A stretch of DNA of 64,000 nt from a virus (IMGVR_UViG_3300017917_000952:62001-126000); one strand, 5' to 3'; shown: positions 14,313 through 25,479, numbered from the stretch's first letter. Notes: generated from the sequence alone by a model not told the origin. Translations and numbers: made by a program.

Positions 14313-16985
14313 ATGAGTTACGTTGATGCCATATGGGATCGCGAGAAAGACATCATTCATGCTGTCGAGCGAGATCTTAAAAAGGGTAGACTTTATCAAA
14401 CATTCCCAGCCCGCTATCTGTTTTACTATCCAGATGCTAAGGGCAAATATAAATCAATCCACGGCGAAAGCCTATCAAAAGTTACTGCAAAGAATTGGAA
14501 AGAGTTCATTAAAGAACAAAAGATCCATAGCGGTTACAAACTATACGAAAGCGACATCAACCCTGTATTTCGCTGTCTCGAAGAAAACTATCTAGGTAAG
14601 GAACCTCCAAAACTGAATGTAGCGTTTTGGGATATTGAGGTGGACTTCGATCCAGAGCGCGGCTATGCATCGCCCGATGATGCATTTATGCCAATCACTG
14701 CGATTGCCGTTCACCTACAATGGTTAGATACATTAGTCTGTCTTGCTATTCCTCCAAAGACTCTAACAATGGAGCAGGCACAAGAACAGGTTAAAGACTT
14801 TCCTAACACGTTTCTGTTCGAAACAGAATACGAAATGTTAGACACTTTTCTTAACCTAATTGAGGATGCCGACATTCTAAGCGGCTGGAACAGTGAAGGT
14901 TTCGATATGCCGTACACGGTAAATAGAATTATAAAGGTTCTAAGTAAAGAAGATACACGCAGACTGTGCCTTTGGAACCAAATGCCCAAGAAGCGGGAGT
15001 ACGAAAAATATGGAAAAGCGGCTGTTACTTATGACCTGGTTGGTCGTGTTCATTTGGACAGTCTCGAGCTGTACCGCAAATACACATATGAAGAGCGTCA
15101 CACCTACAGACTGGACGCAATTGGGGAAATGGAGATAGGTGAATCAAAGACTGTCTATGAAGGCACACTTGATCAACTATACAATAATGATTTCCGCAAG
15201 TTTATTGAATACAACAGGCAAGACTGTGCGCTGTTAAACAAACTTGATAAGAAATTAAAATTCATTGACCTTGCAAACACCATTGCACATGAAAACACTG
15301 TGTTGCTACAGACTACAATGGGCGCTGTTGCTGTTACGGAACAGGCTATTGTAAATGAAGCACATCACAGAGGACTAATCGTTCCAAGTCGTCCACGTAG
15401 AGATGATACAGTTAATAGTGCGGCTGCTGGTGCGTATGTTGCATATCCTAAAAAAGGACTTCACGACTGGATTGGCTCTATGGACATTAACAGTCTGTAT
15501 CCATCTGTCATTCGTGCATTGAACATGGGTCCAGAAACTATTGTCGGACAGTTAAGGCCAGATTATACTAAAGCAGAAATTGAAGAAAAAACAACTGCTA
15601 AGGGATTAAGTTTTGCCGGCTCATGGGAAGGCAAGTTCGGTAGTAACGAATATGAATTTGTTATGGCACAGGACAAAGCCCACGATATTATCATTGACTG
15701 GGAGAATGGTAGCACTGATGTAATGAGTGGTGCCGAAATTTATAAACTAATATTCGAAAGCGGCAAGCCTTGGATGATAAGTGCGAACGGCACAATCTTT
15801 ACACATGAGCACGAAGGAGTTATTCCCGGATTGCTAAAGCGTTGGTACGCTGAACGTAAAGAAATGCAGGCCAAACTTAAAGAGGCAATTAAGGCCGAAA
15901 ATAAAATCGAAGAAGAATATTGGGACAAGCGTCAGTTGGTTAAAAAGATTAACTTAAACAGTCTGTACGGCGCTATTCTTAATGTGGGCTGTAGATTCTT
16001 TGATGATAGAATCGGACAATCAACTACATTAACAGGACGACAAATTGCACGTCATATGGCTGCAAAAATTAATGAAGTTGTAACAGGCGAGTATGATCAC
16101 GTAGGTAAAGCAATTATCTACGGTGATACAGACTCTGCTTATTTCAGCGCCTATAGCAGTCTTAAAAATGAAATTGCAAAAGGACAAATCCCTTGGGACA
16201 AAGATACCGTTATACAACTATATGACACTGTAGCCAACGAAGTTAACAGCACATTCCCGCAGTTCATGCTCGATGCTTTCCACTGCCCAAAGAGCCGTGG
16301 CGAAGTTATCAAAGCAGGTCGAGAAATTGTTGCTATCAAGGGTCTGTTTATTACTAAGAAACGTTATGCAGTTCTTGTATATGACAAAGAAGGTAAGCGT
16401 AAAGATAAAGACGGCAAGCCGGGAGAAATCAAGGCTATGGGTCTAGATCTGAAGCGTAGCGACACACCTGAATTTATGCAGGAATTCCTAACTGAGATCC
16501 TAACAAAGGTCCTAAATGGCAGCGAAGAAAAAGAAATTCTAGATAGAATTGTCGAGTTCAGAACCGAATTTAAGGCTCGACCTGGTTGGGAGAAAGGTAG
16601 TCCAAAACGTGCAAACAATATTACAGACTACGAGGAAAAAGAAAAGAAAGCAGGCAAGGCAAATATGCCCGGTCATGTCCGAGCAAGTATTAATTGGAAT
16701 ACTCTCCGCAGAATGAACGGTGACAAATACAGTATGCAAATTGTCGACGGTATGAAGGTTATCGTCTGCAAGTTAAAGTCCAATCCTCTAGGATTTACCA
16801 GTGTTGCATATCCTGTAGATGAACTACGTTTACCTAAGTGGTTTATGGAACTGCCGTTTGATCACGGAGAAATGGAAGCCACCATTATTAACAACAAGGT
16901 TGAAAACCTTATTGGTGTACTGGAATGGGATTTGAACAGTACACAAGAAACAAACACATTTGGTAGTTTATTCAGTTTTGAATAA
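14313..16985 (+). CDS. 43: Replicative DNA polymerase, family B (T4 gp43-like)
   Basis: 890 residues, close to T4 gp43 (898). The 3'-5' exonuclease motifs are DIE (Asp107, Glu109), NSEGFD and YNRQD. The polymerase motifs are A, DINSLYPS (Asp391), B, KKINLNSLYG, and C, YGDTDS (Asp605, Asp607). All catalytic aspartates are present, so it should be a proofreading replicase. The C-terminus NTFGSLFSFE is placed like the clamp-binding tail of T4/RB69 polymerase, and a nearly identical peptide recurs in the DpdA-like protein at 18119. The leader carries two operator-like hairpins, suggesting autogenous control. The sliding-clamp gene follows behind its own promoter. Confidence 0.97.
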   Translation: MSYVDAIWDREKDIIHAVERDLKKGRLYQTFPARYLFYYPDAKGKYKSIHGESLSKVTAKNWKEFIKEQKIHSGYKLYESDINPVFRCLEENYLGKEPPKLNVAFWDIEVDFDPERGYASPDDAFMPITAIAVHLQWLDTLVCLAIPPKTLTMEQAQEQVKDFPNTFLFETEYEMLDTFLNLIEDADILSGWNSEGFDMPYTVNRIIKVLSKEDTRRLCLWNQMPKKREYEKYGKAAVTYDLVGRVHLDSLELYRKYTYEERHTYRLDAIGEMEIGESKTVYEGTLDQLYNNDFRKFIEYNRQDCALLNKLDKKLKFIDLANTIAHENTVLLQTTMGAVAVTEQAIVNEAHHRGLIVPSRPRRDDTVNSAAAGAYVAYPKKGLHDWIGSMDINSLYPSVIRALNMGPETIVGQLRPDYTKAEIEEKTTAKGLSFAGSWEGKFGSNEYEFVMAQDKAHDIIIDWENGSTDVMSGAEIYKLIFESGKPWMISANGTIFTHEHEGVIPGLLKRWYAERKEMQAKLKEAIKAENKIEEEYWDKRQLVKKINLNSLYGAILNVGCRFFDDRIGQSTTLTGRQIARHMAAKINEVVTGEYDHVGKAIIYGDTDSAYFSAYSSLKNEIAKGQIPWDKDTVIQLYDTVANEVNSTFPQFMLDAFHCPKSRGEVIKAGREIVAIKGLFITKKRYAVLVYDKEGKRKDKDGKPGEIKAMGLDLKRSDTPEFMQEFLTEILTKVLNGSEEKEILDRIVEFRTEFKARPGWEKGSPKRANNITDYEEKEKKAGKANMPGHVRASINWNTLRRMNGDKYSMQIVDGMKVIVCKLKSNPLGFTSVAYPVDELRLPKWFMELPFDHGEMEATIINNKVENLIGVLEWDLNSTQETNTFGSLFSFE

Positions 16986-16993
16986 AAAATCTG

Positions 16994-17022
16994 TTGACTT
17001 TTTACTACCGCCTAAATAAAAT
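16994..17022 (+). promoter_or_regulatory. Sigma-70 promoter for the sliding clamp
   Basis: TTGACT at 16994-16999 and TAAAAT at 17017-17022, 17-base spacer, starting 8 bases after the polymerase stop. The predicted start site near 17029 leaves a short leader with AAGGA before ATG 17042. Confidence 0.7.
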
Positions 17023-17041
17023 TAACAAAAGGATTATAATC

Positions 17042-17776
17042 ATGAAAGCAATCTTACAAGACATCGTCGCACATACAAACAAACTAGGGTTTTTAAATAT
17101 CGTTAAAGTAACAGGTACTAAAGATAAAACTCTAGTCGACAGTATGGCTGATGACCGTAGCGTTATTATGTACGCAGAAACAAAGGACCCACAGCCAAGT
17201 ATGCAGGGTGTGTTCGGTATGCCTCAACTCGAAAAACTTCGTTATCTTGTTGACGGTAAAGAATACCAAGACGATGCCAAGATCGAAGTTGTTACAGCAG
17301 ATCGAAACGGTGAGACTATTCCTGTAGGCTTACACTTTGAAAACAAAGACGGTGACTTCAAGAACGACTATCGTTTTATGAACACTGAGATTATTAACGA
17401 GAAACTTAAGACTGTTAAGTTCCGTGGTGTTAACTGGCATGTTGAAGTTGAACCTACGGTTAGTGCTATCCAGCGTTTCCAATTCCAAGCAGGTGCAAAT
17501 ACAGAACATACAACGTTCCTTGCAAAGACTGACGGAGATAAACTTGTGTTTGTTTTTGGTGATCAAAGCACTCACGGTGGCGAGTTTGTTTTTGCATCTG
17601 GCATTACTGGAAAGATCACAAAGGCATGGACATGGCCTGTTAACAGCGTTCTAAGTATTCTTAAGATCGCAGACGGTAACAATACTAAAATGAGTTTTAG
17701 TAACGACGGTGCTATGCAGATCGAATTAGACAGTGGCATTGCTACTTACAAATATATCATTCCTGCACAAGCATGA
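17042..17776 (+). CDS. 45: DNA polymerase sliding clamp (gp45-like)
   Basis: 244 residues from ATG 17042 behind AAGGA. The overall size and pattern of two PCNA-like subdomains fit T4 gp45 (228 residues), a trimeric ring. The C-terminal half (TWPVNSVLSILKIADG, KMSFSNDGAMQIELDSG, ATYKYIIPAQA) is the clearest match. The N-terminus is diverged but reads as in aquatic T4-like phages (HTNKLGFLNIVKVTG, ESMADDRS-like region, QGVFGMPQLEKL). The clamp tethers gp43 and, in T4, activates gp55-dependent late transcription. Loader genes 44/62 are not in this window. The stop overlaps the next start as ATGA. Confidence 0.82.
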   Translation: MKAILQDIVAHTNKLGFLNIVKVTGTKDKTLVDSMADDRSVIMYAETKDPQPSMQGVFGMPQLEKLRYLVDGKEYQDDAKIEVVTADRNGETIPVGLHFENKDGDFKNDYRFMNTEIINEKLKTVKFRGVNWHVEVEPTVSAIQRFQFQAGANTEHTTFLAKTDGDKLVFVFGDQSTHGGEFVFASGITGKITKAWTWPVNSVLSILKIADGNNTKMSFSNDGAMQIELDSGIATYKYIIPAQA

Positions 17777-18126
17777 TCAATAACATATCAGGCATGAATA
17801 ATGTTGTCGTTATGAACGGCAACTCGTTCATGCCGTATGTAAACATGTCAAACCCTAGTGCTGGCATAGTCCGATACAATGGTAGTAACCAAAGTATGGA
17901 AGTGTATGACGGAAATAGTTGGTTGACTATGAATAATAATCATGTTAATATCGATCTGTCTGGTGCTGCTAATGCCGCCATTGCTTGGGCTATGAATAAG
18001 ATGGCAGAAGAAGCACAGTTAGAAAAGATGGCGGCAGAGCACCCTGCTGTAAAGGCAGCATATGAAAATATGAAACGTGCCGCAGAACAATTAAAAGCAA
18101 CAATAATATTGAGTAAAGATGAGTAA
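17773..18126 (+). CDS. Unknown protein with fibre-like N-terminus
   Basis: 117 residues, coupled to gp45 (ATGA) and to the DpdA-like gene (8-base overlap). Residues ~1-60 are Asn/Met/Val-rich with a GIVRYNGSNQSMEVYDGNSWLTM segment, a small beta pattern frequent in phage fibre and virion proteins. Residues ~65-112 are an Ala/Glu/Lys-rich amphipathic helix, probably a coiled coil. Its place between clamp and modification gene argues for a non-structural job, but none can be named. Confidence 0.65.
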   Translation: MINNISGMNNVVVMNGNSFMPYVNMSNPSAGIVRYNGSNQSMEVYDGNSWLTMNNNHVNIDLSGAANAAIAWAMNKMAEEAQLEKMAAEHPAVKAAYENMKRAAEQLKATIILSKDE

Positions 18127-19675
18127 CCCACCACGCAACCTAACACCGTTGCAGAAAGATTATGCTGTATATCTTCCTGCCATTAGTAGTTTCTACAGCA
18201 CCTATGTCGCAAAACAACGTCTAGAAGAATTTGTACCCAAGGATCGTATCCCTGCAGGATTTGATCGAGGAATTGAGGGTATGAACTTTCTTAACCCCGA
18301 ACAGGGCTACTTTACCTACAAGTATGCTCTATATTCTGCAGGTCACGCACAGTTAGATATTGTTAAGGCACAAACGCAAGAGTCAATGATCCAACAACGC
18401 GATAGAGGTAACTCTTTAATCTTAGGTGACTCCGGTGGGTATCAGATCGGTAAAGGCGTTCTTAAATTTGACTGGCTTAACTTTGAAGGCAAGGAAGCAA
18501 ACAAAACACGTCAACAGATTTTAGAATGGCTAGAAGCAACCGCCGATTGGTCAATGATGCTCGACGTTCCTACATGGGCCTGCGATCACATCCATAGTCC
18601 AAAGACTGGACTAAAAACATTTGACGATTGTCTAGACAAGACACGCTTCAATAACGATTACTTCCTTAAGAACCGCCTAGGTGCTACTAAGTGGCTTAAT
18701 GTTCTACAAGGCAGTGATTGGGATACTGCCGAAAAATGGTATAACGGTGTAAAAGAATTCAGCGATCCTAAAGGCAAGTATGCCGGTAAGGAAGCCGAAG
18801 GGTGGGCCTTCGGTGGTGCTAACATGTGTAAAATGGATATTACACTCAAGCGTCTAATGACCTTGCGTGAAGATGGTTTGCTGAAAGGCAAAAACTGGAT
18901 CCACTTCCTGGGTACAGCACAGTTAGATTGGTCGTGCTATCTAACGCAAATTCAACGTCAAATTAGGAAACACATCAATGAAGAAATTACCATATCTTTT
19001 GACTGCGCCTCACCGTTCATCGCAACAGCACACGGACTCGTCTACACAAACGCAGTCCACACGCCCAAAAGGTGGAGTGTTATTATGGACAAAGCCCCAG
19101 ATAACAAAGCACTTTCAGGAAGCGACATCCCGTTCCCATTCGAAAGCGAATTCGGTCGCAGGTTAACATTAGGTGATATCTGTTACTATGCTCCAGGTAT
19201 GCTTAACAAGATTGGCAAAGAAGGTAAAACTTCTTGGGATAGTTTTGCTTATGCACTTATGATGGGTCATAATGTCGAGTGTCATATTATTGCTGTACAA
19301 CGAGCACAGCAGTTAATGGACATTGAAGTTGCAAAGACCAAGGGTAAGATCAACTGGAAACACTGGAAGAAAGTAAAGTCCGGAGACATGAGTGACGAAT
19401 ACAGTGATTGGGTTCCTCGCAATATCCTATACTTCTCGAACTTTATCGAAGACCTGTTCAACACCAAAACAAAAGCAGAAGCATTTGAAATGATCGAGCA
19501 AGCAGGTCCTTTCTTACGCAGTCTAGAAGGTGCCCGACTGCAAGGTGGTCCTGCACAGAATACATTCGGTAACTTGTTTGAAATTGAAACGGTTACAGAT
19601 CAAAACGAAATCGATCTTGCTAACCCAGACGACGACGATCTAAGAGCGCTTGAAGAAGGTATTACAGGAGAATAA
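18119..19675 (+). CDS. dpdA: DpdA-like DNA guanine transglycosylase (TGT superfamily)
   Basis: 518 residues. The fold is that of tRNA-guanine transglycosylase: the substrate-pocket motif GDSGGYQIG with Asp104 (Asp102 in Zymomonas TGT), LDVPTWA, a Gly-rich FGGANMC, and FDCASPF with Asp295 in the place of the nucleophile Asp280. The tRNA-type zinc signature (CxCxxC...H) is absent. DpdA proteins of phages and bacteria exchange guanine in DNA for a 7-deazaguanine such as preQ0 or its derivatives, which protects DNA from restriction. A QueE-like gene at 24625 supports the pathway. Near the C-terminus (19559-19588) lies NTFGNLFEIE, matching the polymerase tail NTFGSLFSFE, followed by an acidic end. 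It is co-transcribed with the clamp. A tRNA substrate is less likely but not excluded. Confidence 0.85.
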   Translation: MSNPPRNLTPLQKDYAVYLPAISSFYSTYVAKQRLEEFVPKDRIPAGFDRGIEGMNFLNPEQGYFTYKYALYSAGHAQLDIVKAQTQESMIQQRDRGNSLILGDSGGYQIGKGVLKFDWLNFEGKEANKTRQQILEWLEATADWSMMLDVPTWACDHIHSPKTGLKTFDDCLDKTRFNNDYFLKNRLGATKWLNVLQGSDWDTAEKWYNGVKEFSDPKGKYAGKEAEGWAFGGANMCKMDITLKRLMTLREDGLLKGKNWIHFLGTAQLDWSCYLTQIQRQIRKHINEEITISFDCASPFIATAHGLVYTNAVHTPKRWSVIMDKAPDNKALSGSDIPFPFESEFGRRLTLGDICYYAPGMLNKIGKEGKTSWDSFAYALMMGHNVECHIIAVQRAQQLMDIEVAKTKGKINWKHWKKVKSGDMSDEYSDWVPRNILYFSNFIEDLFNTKTKAEAFEMIEQAGPFLRSLEGARLQGGPAQNTFGNLFEIETVTDQNEIDLANPDDDDLRALEEGITGE

Positions 19676-22819: not shown

Positions 22820-23280
22820 AATGGTTTCTTAAAATTCTAGAACGACTAGGTCGTAAACGTATTGTAATGGACAGGATTAACAATGAGCCTTATCTCGAAC
22901 GCTACTACCTCTTTCTTAAAGATAGAAAGCATTTCCCCTTCAATGTGTTTCTTCACCGTTTCCTTAAATCAGATCCCGATGATGTGCATGATCATCCATG
23001 GGGTTACGCAACGCTTATCTTAAAAGGCGGCTACTATGAATGGGTGGGCAAGTTTAACTCCAACGGCGAAAAGATTGGTGAAGTTAGAATGTGGCGTGGC
23101 CCTGGCCATTTCCGTGTATGTAGTGCTACTTCTTACCATCGTATTGAACTTGACCCAGGGGTAGACTGCTGGACTTTGTTCATGCCCGGTCCTCAGAAGA
23201 GAGAATGGGGATTCTGGTATAAGGGTGCTTGGATGCACAATGACCAATACCTTAAAGGTCGGTCAGAGGGAACTTTGTAA
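22816..23280 (+). CDS. Cupin-fold protein
   Basis: 154 residues. A basic, helical N-terminus (MKWFLKILERLGRKR) is followed by a double-stranded beta-helix domain with a metal-type motif DVHDHPWGYATLILKGGYYE (residues ~57-76), then RVCSATSYHRIE, and a final WTLFMPGPQKREWGFWY. The two H-x-H-like clusters could bind Fe or Zn. Cupins include isomerases, dioxygenases and sugar-binding proteins. Coupling to the glycosyltransferase suggests sugar or base chemistry. Its last 29 bases overlap the convergent radical-SAM gene. Confidence 0.75.
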   Translation: MKWFLKILERLGRKRIVMDRINNEPYLERYYLFLKDRKHFPFNVFLHRFLKSDPDDVHDHPWGYATLILKGGYYEWVGKFNSNGEKIGEVRMWRGPGHFRVCSATSYHRIELDPGVDCWTLFMPGPQKREWGFWYKGAWMHNDQYLKGRSEGTL

Positions 23281-24289
23281 TTTTTTGATCGTCCTCATCA
23301 ATGCAAGACCTCATTCCGCACTTTTGAGGTCCTTGCGGAGGCATCCACCCGGGGTGCCAAATATTGCCTAGTGCAATGTTGTTACAGTTACTTCCGCTTA
23401 CCCATCCCTGAGCACCTATAACTAGTTTCTCAACTCCTGCGTTACACAACTGCCCGGTGAAACTAGGATGCTTGTTATACGTTTCCTCATATCGTTCTTG
23501 CCATGTAGTCTCTTGAAAATATATTTTTTCTTCGACTAGAGGACTTTTTTCAATTATAGGCGGTGGAGGGGGCGGGGGTGGCGGAGCAACTACTGGAGGT
23601 GCTTCAGCAAGGCGGCGGCGCATTTCTTCTTCTCTGCGTTTCTGTTCTTCTAAGCGTCTTGCTCTTTCTATTAAAACTTGTTCCCTATGCTCTTTGGTAA
23701 GATTAAAAAAATCAATCTTTTGCAGTTCTTCAAAAGAATACTTTAACATTCCTGCGGACGGATCTGCATTAAAATATAATTGTGTTTTAGTTATAACTAT
23801 ACCAAGTTCTTCTTCTAGTTCAAGAACTCTATTAATATCTTCTTCAACGTGTGTGTTTCTTATCGGTGCAGTAATTGAAATCTTTTTGTTTTTTGATTTA
23901 AAAGTATCAAATATATATTTGATTAAAGAGGGGCTTTGCCAAAAATGAAATGTTAGAATTAGATTATCAACATGAGGTTCTATAGCCCACCAATCCATCC
24001 ATAATCTGCCGCCGCTAGTATGTAAGGTAATGCTATCACTATTTGCTCTGCATAGTTTGAGTAATTGGGGCATATAGTCCATATCCAGTGGCTCGCCTCC
24101 ATTAAATATCCAATCAATGCTTCTGTTTTGCTTTATCTTGTAAGAATCGATTAGCAGTTGGGCAATTCTAAGATACTCGTTTATGTCTTGAGGAACTGGA
24201 CCCCCTCGAGAGCTCGTTGGACAATATTCACATTGGGCCTTACAATAGTCGTTTAAGGTCCAGGAAATAATGGTTTTTAAATTATCCAT
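23252..24289 (-). CDS. Radical SAM protein with coiled-coil/polyproline insert
   Basis: 345 residues on the minus strand amid plus-strand genes. The 4Fe-4S/SAM motif CKAQCEYC (Cx3Cx2C, Cys16, 20, 23) opens a partial TIM barrel (IFNGGEPLDMDYMPQLLKLC with the GGEP motif). After ~residue 205 comes an Arg/Glu coiled coil and a run of nine prolines (~245-253), unusual in this fold. The C-terminal ~75 residues contain several further cysteines (LCNAG, GSNCNN, KCGMRSC) in a SPASM/twitch-like arrangement that could hold a second cluster. The substrate is unknown. SPASM enzymes often modify peptides. It is convergent with the cupin gene (29-base overlap) and divergent from the MazG/QueE operon. I see no Shine-Dalgarno. 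Confidence 0.8.
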   Translation of the reverse strand: MDNLKTIISWTLNDYCKAQCEYCPTSSRGGPVPQDINEYLRIAQLLIDSYKIKQNRSIDWIFNGGEPLDMDYMPQLLKLCRANSDSITLHTSGGRLWMDWWAIEPHVDNLILTFHFWQSPSLIKYIFDTFKSKNKKISITAPIRNTHVEEDINRVLELEEELGIVITKTQLYFNADPSAGMLKYSFEELQKIDFFNLTKEHREQVLIERARRLEEQKRREEEMRRRLAEAPPVVAPPPPPPPPPIIEKSPLVEEKIYFQETTWQERYEETYNKHPSFTGQLCNAGVEKLVIGAQGWVSGSNCNNIALGNIWHPGWMPPQGPQKCGMRSCIDEDDQKITKFPLTDL

Positions 24290-24350: not shown

Positions 24351-24638
24351 ATGCAGGCTAACCCAAATAGATACCAAGAAGCATTAGACATTCTGCAGGA
24401 AGAATGCGGAGAAGTAATTGTAGAAGTTAGCAAGTGTCGCAGGTTTGGTCTAAATACAACACATTACAAAACAGGCCTAGAGCATAACAAAATGCTCGAA
24501 ATTGAAATAGGTGATGTGTTAGCAATGATTGATATCTTAGAAGAACAGGGTATCATAGACCACACTGCGTTAATGCACGCCAAGTCAAAGAAAAAAGAAA
24601 AACTTAAACAATGGTCAAAAATATATGAGCAAAATTAA
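24351..24638 (+). CDS. MazG-like nucleotide pyrophosphohydrolase
   Basis: 95 residues from ATG 24351. The earlier in-frame ATG (24324) lies inside the -10 box. The EExxE...ExxD metal motif of all-alpha NTP pyrophosphatases is present: LQEECGEVIVEVSK and, after ~30 residues, EIEIGDVLAMIDIL. Members of this family hydrolyse NTPs or dNTPs to monophosphates; phage MazG proteins can alter host nucleotide or (p)ppGpp pools. In a base-modification block it might also remove a competing normal nucleotide. The end overlaps the QueE-like gene by 14 bases. Confidence 0.8.
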   Translation: MQANPNRYQEALDILQEECGEVIVEVSKCRRFGLNTTHYKTGLEHNKMLEIEIGDVLAMIDILEEQGIIDHTALMHAKSKKKEKLKQWSKIYEQN

Positions 24639-25479
24639 AGTCGCAGAATTATTCTATTCTATTCAAGGCGAAGGACGCTATATGGGTGTTCCTTCTGTCT
24701 TTCTTCGCACCTTTGGGTGTAATTTTAAATGCCAAGGGTTTGGCATGCCACGAGGAGAACTAAGCAATGAGGCAGAAAATATTGACGCTACTAAGTACAC
24801 CGAGTACAAATCGCTTCCTTTGGTTTCTACAGGTTGTGACAGTTACGCTAGTTGGGATCCTCGCTTTAAGCATCTATCCCCTCTTCTGGATACTTCTGCG
24901 ATTGCCGACGCTATTGTGGATACGTTACCGCACAAGGAATGGCGGGACGAACATCTCGTAATTACAGGTGGTGAGCCTTTGCTAGGTTGGCAGAAGCAGT
25001 ATCCTGATTTACTCGATCATCCTAAGATGCGTAGTTTGAGAGAAATTACATTTGAGACAAACGGTACAATGCGCCTAACGCCTGCATTCACAGAATATCT
25101 AAAAAACTGGCAATGGAGTCACGAAAAGAACCTTACAAGAGAAATTACATTTAGTGTCAGTGCTAAACTTCCTGTAAGTGGCGAACCGTGGAAGGATGCT
25201 ATCAAACCGGCCGTGGTTAAATCTTATCAAGACATTGGTGCCAACGTCTATCTTAAGTTTGTGATTACCAACGAAGAAGATTTAAAGGACGCTGAACGAG
25301 CAGTCGAAGAATTTAGGGCAGGTGGGTTTACTGGACACGTATACCTTATGCCTGTTGGCGGTGTAGAGTCTGTGTATGCACTAAACAATAGGAACGTAGC
25401 AGACATTGCCATGCGTAAAGGTTGGAGATATTCAGATCGACTTCAAGTGCCACTGTTTAAAAACGAGTGGGGCACCTAA
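24625..25479 (+). CDS. queE: QueE-like 7-carboxy-7-deazaguanine synthase with split cluster motif
   Basis: 284-residue radical SAM enzyme. It starts as QueE does (ELFYSIQGEGRYMGVPSVFLR), which is diagnostic, and has VITGGEPLLGW and EITFETNGT. QueE converts carboxy-tetrahydropterin to 7-carboxy-7-deazaguanine on the way to preQ0. The cluster motif is unusual: GCNFKC gives Cys32 and Cys36, but the third cysteine is Cys71 in GCDSYASWD, separated by 34 residues instead of 2. The CD(S/T) context matches the canonical third cysteine, so the insert has been placed inside the loop. With the DpdA-like gene it points to 7-deazaguanine DNA modification. QueC, QueD and FolE are not evident here and may lie elsewhere or in the host. 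Confidence 0.85.
   Translation: MSKIKVAELFYSIQGEGRYMGVPSVFLRTFGCNFKCQGFGMPRGELSNEAENIDATKYTEYKSLPLVSTGCDSYASWDPRFKHLSPLLDTSAIADAIVDTLPHKEWRDEHLVITGGEPLLGWQKQYPDLLDHPKMRSLREITFETNGTMRLTPAFTEYLKNWQWSHEKNLTREITFSVSAKLPVSGEPWKDAIKPAVVKSYQDIGANVYLKFVITNEEDLKDAERAVEEFRAGGFTGHVYLMPVGGVESVYALNNRNVADIAMRKGWRYSDRLQVPLFKNEWGT

Follow-up and report, generated by a model that had tools for sequence, protein, structure and literature searches.

The α-glucosyltransferase of bacteriophage T4 was reportedly found bound to the gp45 sliding clamp by Sommer in 2004. The binding was confirmed by pull-down in a 2026 study, yet it is the expression of the enzyme, and not its binding to the clamp, that mostly sets its modification share (PMC13216743). 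The C-termini of the T4 proteins gp43, gp55 and gp33 also bind gp45; these hydrophobic and acidic tails can replace one another and still function when placed internally in a fusion protein (PMC2988020). Here, we analysed a virus DNA stretch of 64,000 nucleotides (IMGVR_UViG_3300017917_000952:62001-126000, the window), which belongs to a virus record of 206,751 bp. In the window, the C-terminus of the family B DNA polymerase and the tail of a DpdA-like DNA transglycosylase, whose genes flank that of a sliding clamp, carry closely similar peptides. We consider it probable that the DpdA-like enzyme is a client of the clamp through this peptide on its disordered tail, which would couple DNA modification to replication.

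The peptides resemble those of T4 gp43, gp55, gp33 and DNA ligase, which are short, hydrophobic and acidic and lie on flexible tails of unrelated proteins of one phage (PMC2988020, PMC7892883). Whereas the T4 clients are a polymerase, transcription factors and a ligase, the client here would be a DNA transglycosylase, and its peptide is usually internal. As with the T4 α-glucosyltransferase, a phage DNA-modifying enzyme would be held by the phage sliding clamp, but the two enzymes are unrelated, one transferring a sugar and the other exchanging a base. Clamp binding has been shown for the former and is proposed for the latter. The described transglycosylases DpdA of phage 9g and DpdA2 of Vibrio phage nt-1 share with the window protein, as judged from its predicted structure, the fold of the tRNA-guanine transglycosylases (TGT), and also the association with FolE and QueD genes and, in the window as a candidate, a QueE gene (PMC6884629). 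However, neither of them finds the window protein by sequence, the nt-1 DpdA2 is without a clamp-like tail, and the activity of the window enzyme is a predicted one. In a search of the openly accessible literature, no paper describing a clamp-docked DpdA was found. The main DpdA study does not contain the word 'clamp', and in one of two papers that have both 'DpdA' and 'sliding clamp', the terms stand in no relation to each other.

The two peptides and their conservation

The earlier note on this DNA had placed the peptide NTFGSLFSFE at the end of the polymerase and NTFGNLFEIE near the end of the DpdA-like protein. Both were found at these positions (Table 1), with the stop codon directly after the polymerase peptide, and seven of the ten residues are identical, as had been claimed. 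The peptide of the DpdA-like protein indeed lies near its C-terminus, but it is followed by 28 residues and not by 29. At four of these identical positions (N, F, L and F) the codons differ between the two genes, so that the likeness is maintained in the protein and does not stem from a recent DNA copy. Beyond these two proteins, TFGxLF was present in no further open reading frame (ORF) of at least 30 residues in the window. When the whole record was searched for F-x-x-[LF]-F-x-h-[DE], written as a pattern of 24 bases, the only real ORFs were again the polymerase and DpdA; the remaining three matches lay in short reverse-strand ORFs of 11-64 residues.

The identity of the proteins was supported by predicted structures. 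The clamp has no Pfam match and an unnamed PHROG match, while its homologues carry a clamp annotation in public phages. The clamp and DpdA of the related locus L048 were modelled as a single monomeric chain read through the stop codon, and the clamp part of the model matches the two-domain PCNA fold (E 1.8e-11), which upholds the clamp label of the earlier note. The DpdA-like protein gave no TGT or DpdA family match by sequence in Pfam, PHROGs, NCBIfam or PDB, and a PDB profile search with the DpdA alignment gave zero matches. For its L048 homologue, however, the predicted structure gave matches to a tRNA-guanine transglycosylase of a phage (3.1e-12) and to the nt-1 DpdA2 (1.2e-8), so that the second label was upheld as well, though hhalign against nt-1 DpdA2 gave a probability of only 5%. 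The motif DSGG[YF]Q is invariant across eight divergent members, and we take it to hold the catalytic active-site Asp of TGTs. In PA5oct, a protein 41% identical to the window enzyme is encoded beside the clamp, and PA5oct has been listed with a deazaguanine synthesis/incorporation system (PMC7824862). As the name rests on fold and context, we call the enzyme DpdA-like.

Both tails persist in 80 close IMG/VR relatives, where the consensus is NTFGxLFxF[ED] for the polymerase and, with drift, QNxFxxLFxhE for DpdA. In the polymerase, L and F of the LF pair are both invariant in 37 aligned relatives. Single-sequence scans of the collection with the DpdAs of PA5oct and Vibrio phage 2.275.O found nothing, whereas a scan based on an alignment, followed by a second one, extended to more divergent phages. 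Among 105 non-redundant polymerase/DpdA pairs, F..[LF]F was present in 65 of the DpdA tails, compared with 11 of 1310 other ORFs (0.8%) of the same loci, for which the last 62 residues were scored. The shorter [LFIM]F was kept in 98 of the 105 tails, which is weak alone since 35% of the other ORFs have it. At F487, the second phenylalanine of the DpdA peptide, 99 of 104 relatives have F (4.0 bits), which equals the conservation of core residues of the enzyme, whereas the neighbouring residues vary. In L048, the tail stretch is predicted to be disordered, with a predicted local distance difference test (pLDDT) score <50 over residues 746-778. Docking peptides are usually recognised by such an aromatic residue, almost invariant within a disordered tail, which suggests one here.

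Behind the peptide, the tail of the window protein has an acidic helix (Table 1), and its residues D504-D506, L508, L511 and E512 are conserved where the helix is present. This second tail element, DDxxLxxLE, was observed in most LF-type relatives and is absent where the peptide forms the extreme C-terminus. In one relative (L050:6966-9005) the DpdA ORF extends into the downstream sequence and reaches 680 residues, apparently via a lost stop or a frameshift.

The earlier note had suggested looking for co-variation of the two peptides in related phages, and the DpdA tail was found to follow the lineage changes of the polymerase tail. The polymerase/DpdA pairs are LFSFE/LFEIE, FFEF/FFEF or DLFDW/DLFGW, depending on the lineage. 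In one clade of 12 tips (support 0.999), FF replaces LF in the polymerase, and 11 of the 12 have FF in DpdA. In L123 and L124, FFEF directly precedes the stop of both polymerase and DpdA, a terminus found nowhere else on their contigs, while L122 and L155 of the FF clade have FF internally. In Vibrio phage 2.275.O, the polymerase terminates with DLFDW and DpdA with DLFGW; in PA5oct, the polymerase terminates with DSLFGW and the DpdA tail has NSLFDVD. The joint change also holds in lineages in which the DpdA peptide has shifted to the very end of the protein. A Fisher p of 1e-10 was not taken as a probability, because the FF form is confined to a single clade. The independent events are few, but each pairs the unrelated proteins with one lineage-specific peptide, at differing positions in DpdA.

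Two further observations were made in these phages. ORF 204 of Vibrio phage 2.275.O (L116:6714-6938) encodes a protein of 74 residues with a zinc-finger-like Cys/His pattern that ends in SLFEW. In a pattern search, this was the only other LFxW terminus in the annotated genes of the phage, and the protein is possibly a further clamp client. The polymerase gene is split in PA5oct (L082:1623-6849) and in L004 and L047. Its N part ends intein-like (TEDHSxMV) and its C part opens intein-like up to VHN, after which the polymerase resumes. In PA5oct, a homing endonuclease gene lies between the halves. From its sequence, the split gene looks like a split intein.

DpdAs encoded beside beta-type clamps

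The 9g-type DpdAs are found outside the window and are unrelated to its DpdA-like protein. In phage 9g, the genes of DpdA, a beta-type clamp and the polymerase adjoin, and DpdA ends in RLQDLFDE. Eleven more 9g-type phages have the order FolE-dpdA-clamp-polymerase, apart from small insertions. In most of them the clamp is named; otherwise it was taken from position and C-terminal likeness. The DpdAs of these eleven end in LF, or once in LFV (RVQELF, RIQELF twice, RAQELF, MIQGLF, MTQGLF, TIMELF, EQMELF, EQQGLFV, REQRLF and DQPGLF). Among 29 IMG/VR relatives with a 9g-type DpdA, 27 have an LF end and 25 a Q-x(1-2)-LF end, whereas neither occurs in 202 other ORFs. The distant DpdA of Dp-1 (28%) has a DnaN gene near it and ends in QRRLF. 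Rosebush-type and Typha DpdAs were without such an LF tail.

The published beta-clamp consensus is Q-L-x-L-F and is usually C-terminal (PMC4549789). The 9g-type tails follow it loosely, as many of them have Q at position 2 (xQELF) and not at position 1. A similar case is that of the transposases with a C-terminal beta-clamp motif, unrelated DNA-acting enzymes that gained a Q-L-x-L-F-like tail convergently (PMC4549789). However, the transposases use the host clamp, whereas the clamp of the 9g-type DpdAs is phage-encoded by a gene beside dpdA. Since two clamp systems are accompanied by two peptide types, the clamp docking of DpdA looks convergent.

We lean towards the wider view that DpdA became tethered to clamps on more than one occasion. 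Where dpdA lies beside a clamp gene, its tail would then be matched to the clamp type, plausibly with a gp43-like peptide for a PCNA-type and a QxxLF-like tail for a beta-type clamp. DpdAs encoded away from the clamp gene would lack the tail, and DpdA would be coupled to the replisome in many phages. That a docking tail goes with the adjacency of dpdA and clamp gene is a pattern seen in a modest sample.

Probable clamp docking and its alternatives

We propose that the short peptide F-x-x-[LF]-F-x-h-[DE], which is hydrophobic and acidic and lies on a C-terminal tail predicted to be disordered, would bind the phage PCNA-type clamp, and that DpdA and the replicative polymerase with its C-terminus would share one site on the clamp. 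The tethered TGT-fold catalytic domain could then swap guanine for 7-deazaguanine in DNA near the clamp, and the modification would thereby be coupled to replication. The earlier note had proposed that the transglycosylase rides on the clamp and modifies new DNA at the fork. The first part found strong sequence support in the conserved peptide, the joint change, the predicted disorder, the adjoining gene of a PCNA-fold clamp and the 9g-type counterpart. Physical binding, the common site, the identity of the modified base and an action on newly made DNA at the fork are what we infer. The DpdA peptide also has the traits of the T4 clamp-binding peptides, being short, hydrophobic and acidic and placed on a predicted disordered tail, and across lineages it equals the polymerase C-terminus with a minority of exceptions. 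The clamp gene was close to dpdA in 196 of 196 complete loci examined (distance 0-1404 nt).

Several results weigh against clamp docking. In the AlphaFold2 model of the L048 read-through chain of clamp and DpdA, the tail was undocked, but so was the positive control, the polymerase tail of L034 joined to the clamp, so that the model speaks neither for nor against docking. The switch from L to F is limited to a single clade and counts as one event. According to the earlier note, relatives that keep the polymerase tail and lack the DpdA peptide would refute docking. Such relatives were a minority, among them L157, L163, L235, L236, L237 and L239, in which the DpdA peptide is weak or lost. The DpdA of Phosso, encoded about 174 kb from the clamp gene, shows no clear peptide and is probably among the exceptions. 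Likewise, DpdA2 of the T4-like phages nt-1 and KVP40 has no peptide, although gp45 is present. The peptide was also not found in DpdA2 of pf16.

An alternative of lower but appreciable probability is that DpdA docks on the clamp for a purpose other than modification at the fork, such as storage of DpdA on loaded clamps, competition with the polymerase or a post-replicative patrol. The T4 α-glucosyltransferase argues for it, as this enzyme binds gp45 while its glucosylation share is set mainly by expression (PMC13216743). On the other side, the fact that tails have long been conserved with both types of clamp points to an advantage connected with DNA that carries clamps, without telling which one. 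It is unlikely that the shared peptide docks on another replication protein, for example the clamp loader or the single-strand binding protein. Such a partner would fit with two proteins that both act on replicating DNA, but the polymerase C-terminus of T4 and RB69 is known to bind the clamp (PMC2988020), all complete loci have the clamp gene near dpdA, and the 9g-type tails resemble the known beta-clamp motif.

We hardly expect the DpdA stretch to have a structural role in the enzyme and to be like the polymerase tail in appearance only. The stretch SLEGARLQGGP just upstream of the peptide is likewise conserved in close relatives, but the peptide region is predicted to be disordered, follows the changes of the polymerase tail and is found at different places in different lineages, and this explanation was rejected on the grounds of conservation and joint change. 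A chance likeness is the least credible and was rejected on the same grounds. Taken alone, a pair of ten-residue peptides from a single genome is weak evidence, but the frequency of F..[LF]F in DpdA tails and the joint lineage-specific change speak against chance.

Gene order, precursor genes and meaning

The genes and peptides discussed here are listed in Table 1. For the 7-deazaguanine precursor pathway, FolE and QueD were found in the same record with scores over the cut-off, and the QueE-like gene of the window gave a match below the curated NCBIfam cut-off. It is adjoined by a radical SAM protein gene (23252-24289, minus strand) with a proline-rich insert and a weak match to the STM4011 family. 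For QueC, the record gave only weak matches, to two tandem paralogous PP-loop ATPase-like genes of about 290 residues. They lie on the minus strand at about 61.0-62.9 kb of the record (L265), just before and at the start of the window.

Table 1. Positions of the described genes and peptides in the window
Feature	Position	Strand	Basis
Family B DNA polymerase, 890 residues	14313..16985	+	DNA_pol_B 1e-37, exonuclease domain 9e-18, phrog_262 6e-197
NTFGSLFSFE, C-terminal peptide of the polymerase, putative clamp dock	16953..16982	+	Sequence; LF invariance in relatives
PCNA/gp45-type sliding clamp, 244 residues	17042..17776	+	phrog_12062; predicted fold of the L048 homologue; annotated homologues
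Small ORF between clamp and DpdA, 117 residues	17773..18126	+	Weak PHROG matches of unknown function
DpdA-like (TGT-fold) DNA transglycosylase, 518 residues	18119..19675	+	Fold of the L048 homologue; invariant DSGG[YF]Q
NTFGNLFEIE, DpdA tail peptide, putative clamp dock	19559..19588	+	Sequence, conservation, predicted disorder (L048), joint change
Acidic helix DDDDLRALE, conserved, after the peptide	19628..19654	+	Conserved residues; helix predicted at the L048 end
QueE-like radical SAM enzyme (7-deazaguanine precursor pathway)	24625..25479	+	NCBIfam QueE models 2e-16 and weaker, below curated cut-offs

Whether phage DNA is modified before or after the host restriction system gains access to it is a question of timing, on which direct data are scarce. 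With DpdA riding on the clamp, if it does so, the insertion of 7-deazaguanine would be coupled to DNA synthesis. It could then be read from the sequence which phage DpdAs are expected to be coupled to the replisome, and DpdA would be the second clamp-bound phage DNA-modifying enzyme, after the α-glucosyltransferase of T4.

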